Shown in pieces: positions 58,854 to 60,192 of a DNA stretch of 64,000 nucleotides (the stretch's first letter is position 1; each line of letters opens with the position of its first letter). The stretch is from Phycisphaerales bacterium (lineage in GTDB: Bacteria; Planctomycetota; Phycisphaerae; Sedimentisphaerales; Anaerobacaceae). The notes under the pieces were generated by a model. It was given only the letters and a program-made list of their open reading frames with translations. It was not told the DNA's origin and did no database searches. Position numbers and translations under genes: made by a program. The stretch lies in assembly GCA_020352515.1 (NCBI GenBank), contig CP070678.1, positions 5,215,705 through 5,279,704 of the forward strand. Reading direction: 5' to 3'.

Positions 58854-58879
58854 CCCCCTCCCACACCCGCCCCAGCCCC
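58854..58879 (-). promoter_or_regulatory. G-quadruplex motif upstream of ftsK
   Basis: On the minus (ftsK sense) strand there are five G-runs with loops of 1-3 bases: GGGG-CT-GGGG-C-GGG-TGT-GGG-A-GGGGG. This fits the canonical intramolecular quadruplex rule well. It lies in a 523-base gap (58681-59203) with strongly C-rich plus-strand sequence to about 58990, then AT-rich sequence with two short inverted repeats (about 59005-59035 and 59041-59075). No gene is supported in this gap. Confidence 0.6.
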
Positions 58880-59203
58880 TTCTACCTTCTTGCTTTCCAA
58901 CCACCCCTACCCCACGGCCCCGCCATCCAGAGCCCGCGTGGCAATTCCGCACTCACGACCACCCCGGCCCGGAAGTCCGAAAAAACCTTAAGAAAGTGCG
59001 ATCGCGTAAGTCCTTGTAGTAAATGCACTTACGAAGGAACGTGAAGAAATTTTGAAAAAACCCAAATTTTCTTCCCGTGATTTTCCCGGTTTTCTGCAAT
59101 TAACAAAGAAGTGATCTTTGCATAATACACCCCTCTGTGGTGCATGGGGGCTTGGCCATGTTGCTTGTGTGCAGTCCGCCGCATGTGTGCTCAAGAGGTA
59201 AAC

Positions 59204-59477
59204 ATGAACAACTCTCCCGAAGAACAAGGTCGTCACATCCTGCAAGAACCCGTTTCCCGATGGGCATTTGCTCAAAGAGTCCGAATGGCAAGTCGGCGCA
59301 AACTGGCAGGACAATCGCAATATATACGATGTCGGGCCCGAGCACTGTAAAGTCATGAGAATACTGCACACAGCCTGTCGTGAGCATGGCGAAAAAGTAA
59401 AGAAAGGATATTCTGACCGACCAAATTCACATCCGTTTCTCAACCGGAAGAAAAAGTGGATCAAGATCCAACGTTGA
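59204..59477 (+). pseudogene. Possible small gene with a frameshift, upstream of the Cys-rich gene
   Basis: AAGAGGTAAAC directly before ATG 59204 is a good ribosome site, but that frame stops after 48 codons (59350). The +1 frame is open from 59208 to 59477 and reads protein-like: NPFPDGHLLKESEWQV, then GANWQDNRNIYDVGPEHCKV, then MRILHTACREHGEKVKKGY. One lost base within 59210-59270 would join the two. No family recognised. It could be a decayed gene, a sequencing error, or chance. Confidence 0.3.
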
Positions 59478-59562
59478 AGCCCTTTAAGGACAAGCAAAAG
59501 CAAACACGATCCTACGGGATCAGCAACTGAAATCATCAACTTGGCTATATGAGGAGACCGCT

Positions 59563-60033
59563 ATGAAAAAGGACAAGCAAAACCAATCTGAAAAACCTCA
59601 AAAGAAGGACACCCCTCCTGAGCCCGGCTCCGAGAGCCTTCAAAACCGGCGAAGATTCCTTCGATCGGTAGGGCATACAACCGCCGCGGTAGCGGGTATC
59701 TCCTTTGTCGGCGGCCTGTTCCCGAGGCAGGCGCTGGGCTGCAGCAGTTGCACCGATGACTTCTGTTCAGGCACACATGAATGCACCGGCGGCACCAATG
59801 TCTGTTCAAGCAACAATACGTGCAACCCCATGAACAAGTGTAGCGCAACTACCTTTACATGCTCAGACGGGAACTACTGCGAGAGCAGTCTCGAGTGTTC
59901 CGGCACGTTCTTCAACTGCAGTGGTGGCAACGAATGCGGTTCCACCAATACCTGCTCGGCCAACTTCACCTGCGAGGGCAACAATCACAGTTGCTGTGCA
60001 GCAGATGCTTGTGTGTTGGAGTTCACTTACTAA
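59563..60033 (+). CDS. Tat-exported cysteine-rich protein made of four 19-residue repeats
   Basis: A 156-residue protein. The N-terminus is Lys/Glu-rich, then a twin-arginine signal (QNRRRFLRS, Arg29-Arg30, then a hydrophobic AAVAGISFVGGLF) with likely cleavage before Cys60. The mature chain has 17 Cys: 60, 63, 68, 74, 81, 87, 93, 100, 106, 112, 119, 125, 131, 137, 144, 145, 150. Residues 68-143 form four units of exactly 19 residues, each with three Cys spaced 5-6 residues, with Ser/Thr/Asn/Gly between. This suggests a three-sided solenoid with a cysteine core, or a metal-binding or post-translationally modified peptide. GAGGAG precedes the ATG. No family recognised; no maturase gene is nearby. 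Confidence 0.82.
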   Translation: MKKDKQNQSEKPQKKDTPPEPGSESLQNRRRFLRSVGHTTAAVAGISFVGGLFPRQALGCSSCTDDFCSGTHECTGGTNVCSSNNTCNPMNKCSATTFTCSDGNYCESSLECSGTFFNCSGGNECGSTNTCSANFTCEGNNHSCCAADACVLEFTY

Positions 60034-60090
60034 GTCAAAACGTGGCTCTGACTCAGAGAGACTGCCCATATATGTAGGGACGTTCCGCAG

Positions 60091-60192
60091 ATGACCATAA
60101 GACAATTCCGCATCGCAGTTGCGGGGGCGGTGATGGTGGTTTTTGCGGCCGTCAACGCTGCCCATCTTGTGAGTCTGGCTCCCGTGAAGTGA
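60091..60192 (+). CDS. Possible 33-residue hydrophobic peptide
   Basis: ATG 60091 opens a short frame, MTIRQFRIAVAGAVMVVFAAV and a dozen further residues, that looks like a signal peptide or single membrane helix with a basic N-terminus. AGGGA lies about 12 bases upstream, which is rather far. It follows the Cys-rich gene by 57 bases on the same strand. It may be a real membrane mini-protein or the front end of a lost gene. Confidence 0.3.
   Translation: MTIRQFRIAVAGAVMVVFAAVNAAHLVSLAPVK

Follow-up and report, generated by a model that had tools for sequence, protein, structure and literature searches.

A Tat-signal cysteine-repeat protein very probably represents an undescribed planctomycete family encoded beside a PapB-related radical SAM enzyme

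The window analyzed here, a stretch of 64,000 nucleotides, contains a small gene for a cysteine-repeat protein. This protein is very probably a member of a planctomycete family that has not been described and whose genes lie next to that of a PapB-related radical SAM (rSAM) enzyme. The association between this protein family and a clade of PapB-like rSAM enzymes is well supported. Judged from its sequence, the window gene probably encodes the precursor of an rSAM-modified, Tat-exported protein with likely thioether crosslinks; any modification of the product of this copy would now occur in trans. The family was reached by searching with the rSAM enzyme instead of the Cys protein.

The open reading frame starts with ATG, encodes 156 amino acids and is preceded by the Shine-Dalgarno-like sequence AGGAGA. 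No sigma-70-like promoter was matched for this copy. The gene and its parts are as follows:
59563..60033 (+): predicted Tat-exported Cys-repeat protein, putative rSAM-modified precursor, 156 aa, with a known paralogue
59563..59643 (+): N-terminal extension, residues 1-27, 19 of 27 residues identical to the paralogue
59644..59739 (+): twin-arginine signal, residues 28-59 (NRRRFLRS...), 31 of 32 residues identical to the paralogue, TatC in the genome
59740..60030 (+): Cys-repeat core, residues 60-156, 97 aa with 17 Cys

The first-pass annotation had counted 17 Cys in the 97 mature residues and four 19-residue units with three Cys each, and both counts were confirmed. Cys was located at positions 1, 7 and 14 of the units 68-86, 87-105 and 106-124 and at positions 1, 7 and 13 of the unit 125-143. 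The units had also been called exact repeats, which is correct for the Cys spacing, whereas only 2-6 of 19 residues outside the Cys are shared between units. The regular spacing is beyond chance, since 5-7-residue Cys gaps were as numerous in 0 of 100,000 shuffles and the gap variance was as low in 2 of 100,000.

The NRRRFLRS motif at residues 28-35 matches the S/T/N-R-R-x-F-L-K-like motif of Tat substrates. A hydrophobic stretch was found as well, and a Tat translocase is encoded in the host genome (TatC, E = 2e-66). The TAT_signal_seq match of the window protein (14.4 bits) is just under the cut-off of 16.7. Residues 1-27 may form a leader for recognition by the maturase. In profile searches the Cys protein matched no Pfam or NCBIfam family, and the window protein matched no PDB entry by sequence, so that the earlier statement that no described family shows this pattern holds for these three resources. 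A sequence search of 98 genomes from the same family or order yielded no match to the Cys protein, and no further convincing copies beyond the window gene and its paralogue were found in the same genome.

The host genome is a single contig of 5.84 Mb and carries the second copy of the Cys gene at 1.626 Mb. This copy is part of an intact cassette with the gene order SPASM-type partner, radical SAM/SPASM enzyme, Cys protein and TPR protein:
L028:10947-12476 (-): SPASM-domain partner gene, intact, 509 aa, without the rSAM CxxxCxxC motif
L028:9670-10950 (-): radical SAM/SPASM gene, intact, 426 aa, directly upstream of the paralogous Cys gene
G000:C1:1626163-1626627 (-): paralogous Cys gene, product 68% identical to the window protein
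L028:7669-9099 (-): TPR-protein gene, intact, 476 aa, weak TPR matches, downstream of the Cys gene

The window locus was aligned with this cassette using blastn. Positions 58879-59303 correspond to the upstream region and the initial codons of the partner gene. Positions 59292-60180 align with the cassette from the final codons of the rSAM gene through the Cys gene to the initial codons of the TPR gene. The following remnants were assigned by comparison with the intact genes:
58879..59203 (+): cassette upstream region, conserved, about 75% identical to the intact locus in the alignment
59204..59303 (+): 5′ remnant of the SPASM-domain partner gene, frame-shifted
59292..59477 (+): 3′ remnant of the radical SAM/SPASM maturase gene (NWQDNRNIYDVGPEHCKVMRILHTACREH), from blastn, with clear homology as far as about 59411
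60091..60192 (+): 5′ remnant of the TPR-protein gene, with a stop after 33 codons

Through a deletion of about 2.44 kb, the start of the partner gene is joined to the end of the rSAM gene, and most of both genes is gone. The window locus is a decayed duplicate of the cassette in which the Cys gene is an orphan, and a maturase appeared to be absent next to it for this reason. The first-pass annotation had found no maturase gene beside the Cys gene. No intact gene is present there, but the adjoining rSAM remnant went unrecognized. This pitfall is now corrected, as the apparent orphan is accounted for by a paralogous locus 3.6 Mb distant. About 2.8 kb beyond the intact cassette, two short stretches at L028:4663-4864(-) match the cassette TPR protein with 55% and 65% identity and represent a further decayed duplicate fragment.

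In the phylogenetic tree, 11 rSAM enzymes form one clade with a support of 100/99. Two of them are encoded in the host genome and the rest in MAGs, several of which are named Planctomycetota. A Tat-signal Cys-repeat protein was found within the fetched flanks at 10 of the 11 intact clade loci. The Cys counts of these neighbors are 16 (paralogue), 144, 22, 19, 18, 49, 32 plus 34, 16, 45 and 28. Among the non-clade rSAM loci with flanks, such a neighbor was found at 1 of 19 (L033, whose enzyme is more typically PapB-like; Fisher p = 4e-6), a comparison with detection thresholds fixed after the first cases, unequal flank lengths and non-independent related loci. At the remaining clade locus (L071) no Cys-repeat protein was recognizable, and only 2.1 kb of contig remain downstream of the enzyme. 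The ranthipeptide arrangement of a precursor beside its maturase is thus present for the paralogue and at 10 of the 11 clade loci, while the window gene has a maturase remnant only. The order partner, rSAM, Cys protein and downstream gene was also found in G584, which belongs to another family, with identities of 48% for the rSAM enzyme and 22% for the partner. The downstream gene of G584 is cut by the contig end, and no sequence similarity to the TPR protein was detected for its product (641 aa).

Asn or Asp was mostly found two residues before Cys (position Cys-2) in nine clade precursors (e.g. 20 of 21, 17 of 17, 39 of 44 and 40 of 47 Cys; permutation p = 2e-4 each), and in 11 of 11 cases in the non-clade L033 protein. 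The enrichment was weaker in the window protein (8 of 16, p = 0.004) and not significant in the paralogue (6 of 15). In the 144-Cys protein Asn/Asp almost never occurs at Cys-2, and Glu follows Cys in 126 of 144 cases. The PapA-type Cys-X3-Asp/Glu repeat was not found, most relatives being enriched for Asn/Asp at Cys-2 instead. In the hexarepeats, the common Asn/Asp at +4 coincides with Cys-2 of the following repeat. The spacing between Cys was 6 residues in the window protein, the paralogue, L035 and L070, 8-9 in L036, L037, L039 and L041 and 3-4 in L029. A lag of 19 was the leading Cys-Cys lag in the window protein and the paralogue only. All 16 shared Cys positions of the window protein are kept in the paralogue.

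For every clade member tested, the best NCBIfam match was the PapB ranthipeptide maturase (NF047865) with 225-270 bits. The rSAM enzyme of the paralogue cassette reached 224.8 bits and the other tested members 226-270 bits; all are under the curated cut-off of 340, and the reaction is therefore not readable from family membership. The next-best maturase models were nif11, QHNDH and SCIFF. The CxxxCxxC rSAM motif and the SPASM cluster cysteines, which are characteristic of the PapB family, are invariant in the rSAM alignment. The clade enzymes have short N-termini with no obvious leader-recognition (RRE) domain. The closest PDB entry by sequence was 5WGG, the SCIFF maturase CteB.

PapB forms Cys-Asp/Glu thioethers in Cys-X3-Asp motifs and tolerates other spacings, but it joins Cys to a later Asp/Glu and does not accept the transposed order (PMC9413430). 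In NxxcA a thioether links Cys23 to Asn20, an acceptor three residues before the Cys; a distance of two residues is not described there (PMC8326336). Because PapB and NxxcA form Cys thioethers, thioether formation is, by analogy, the best guess for the clade enzymes.

The candidate system is similar to PapA/PapB (freyrasin) and other ranthipeptides in having an rSAM/SPASM enzyme from the same region of the superfamily, a Cys-repeat substrate and Asp, Asn or Glu near the Cys. It differs in the substrate, a Tat-signal protein of 156-661 aa with 16-144 Cys compared to a short peptide for PapA/PapB, in the putative acceptor two residues before the Cys and in the enzyme without an obvious RRE. With NxxcA/NxxcB it shares an upstream Asn as Cys thioether acceptor, which is a candidate here, whereas that system has one N-x-x-C ring and lacks the many N-x-C repeats and the Tat signal. 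By their model names, the CXXX-repeat (TIGR04115) and Cys-every-fifth (CefA/CefB, NF038107) systems also pair an rSAM/SPASM enzyme with a target in which Cys recurs at regular intervals. However, with about 45-165 bits against cut-offs of 350 and 600, the clade enzymes match these models less well than the PapB model, and no NCBIfam target family was matched by the Cys proteins.

From these results, the Cys protein would be the substrate of the PapB-like rSAM/SPASM enzyme, probably aided by the SPASM-domain partner. The Cys core would be modified in the reducing cytoplasm, most likely by a thioether from the Cys sulfur to a side-chain carbon of a nearby residue. In most of the family, the presumed acceptor is the Asn/Asp at Cys-2. 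The modified and compact protein would then leave the cell whole via Tat. The window copy would be a cassette duplicate that has lost partner and maturase by deletion, and modification of its product would then depend on the enzyme from the 1.63-Mb locus acting in trans. The preference of the first-pass annotation for an enzyme-installed modification is supported by the PapB-like rSAM/SPASM enzyme that accompanies the family.

Regarding the fold, a three-sided beta-solenoid with 19-residue turns had been proposed. This has lost its main support: the unit is confined to the window protein and the paralogue and is not a feature of the family, since the relatives repeat at 6, 8-9 or 3-4 residues. 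Two AlphaFold runs (the window core with the paralogue, and the L070 hexarepeat with four relatives) gave a mean pLDDT of 36 each and no usable fold, an outcome that weighs neither for nor against a solenoid. A beta-helix is possible for the Cys core, and it could be braced by disulfides as in beetle antifreeze proteins, with the Cys at every sixth residue oxidized outside the cell and the rSAM enzyme acting elsewhere or on few residues. Beetle antifreeze proteins with TCTxSxNCxxAx repeats have a Cys every six residues and disulfides in a beta-helix (PMC8038014), and the sole PDB sequence match of the L070 hexarepeat was the beetle antifreeze protein 1EZG (E = 0.015), with the same Cys spacing and a Thr/Ser/Asn-rich composition. 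However, this match is compositional (bias 41.7 bits compared to a score of 17.9), the homology is not significant, and 1EZG is eukaryotic, disulfide-bonded and without an rSAM enzyme. Relatives with repeats of 8 and of 3-4 residues have the same enzyme clade and signal, Tat cargo is normally folded in a reducing compartment without disulfide formation, and no such helix appears in the AlphaFold output. We therefore regard a disulfide-braced helix as unlikely. A metallothionein-like protein that binds metal or clusters, loaded in the cytoplasm and exported folded, would be consistent with the many Cys and the Tat signal. The Tat system transports many cofactor proteins. The 144-Cys relative, with its spacing of 3-4 and Glu after Cys, fits this explanation best. 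In the window protein, however, the repeats (spacing 6, 6, 7) show no CxxC-type clustering, no metal-transport genes were recognized in the intact cassette, and metal binding leaves the conserved rSAM neighbor and the Asn/Asp-x-Cys motif unexplained, which makes it quite improbable.

A further explanation concerns the window copy and is compatible with the rSAM-modified family described above: this copy could be a non-functional remnant of cassette decay with no present role. None of the partner, rSAM and TPR genes is intact at the window locus, the dN (0.30) and dS (0.28) between the cores of the two copies are about equal, and Cys-145 is an extra Cys absent in the paralogue. On the other hand, the frame, the ribosome-binding site, the signal and the 16 shared Cys are intact at a nucleotide divergence of about 24% in the core, and 40 of the 80 other mature residues are identical. 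By a simple estimate, chance retention of 16 Cys while half of the other residues changed has a probability of about 1 in 65,000. A near-fixed signal, fixed Cys and a drifting remainder are, by analogy, the pattern of peptide precursor families, although the substitution pattern between the copies does not alone show present use of the window copy. We consider the remnant a minority possibility; the window copy may have lost its function recently.

Most rSAM thioether products described so far are short peptides that are secreted. In this family, a PapB-like enzyme type accompanies Tat-signal repeat proteins 150-660 residues long that carry an Asn/Asp-x-Cys motif, and no description of Cys-rich precursors combining Tat and rSAM was found in the open-access literature. 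Tentatively, these proteins may form a new, protein-sized class of rSAM products. Such products would contain up to 144 Cys and many small Asn/Asp-x-Cys thioether rings, be stapled in the cytoplasm to a rigid rod or solenoid, be exported folded via Tat and serve as a structural element at the planctomycete cell surface or outside the cell. If stapling precedes Tat export, it would offer a natural folding route under reducing conditions for a repeat protein rich in Cys. If true, the clade would also be an enzyme source for the multi-ring stapling of long proteins.

Several related loci were observed in addition. One PapB-like enzyme that does not belong to the clade (288.8 bits) adjoins a Tat-signal protein at L033:1-445(-) and L033:723-2174(-), where the contig end cuts the locus. 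In G804, an rSAM gene of the same type is broken after about 217 residues of homology (L040:5983-6897 and L081:8492-9406), with no Cys-repeat neighbor at the broken gene; this is another decayed cassette. Directly after a sister-clade rSAM gene, L073:9550-10524(+) encodes a Cys-rich repeat protein of 324 aa with 24 Cys and no Tat signal. In the host genome, a 20-kb region (L034; G000:C1:463001-482900) contains about nine radical SAM genes, and the products of several end in SPASM-type Cys; it is possibly a separate island for peptide or metabolite modification. The most extreme member by far is also encoded in this genome, at L029:4648-6633(+) (G000:C1 about 1412648-1414633) near the second clade rSAM gene (L029:9480-10889): a Tat-signal protein of 661 aa with 144 Cys in (CETGCEVS)n-like repeats.
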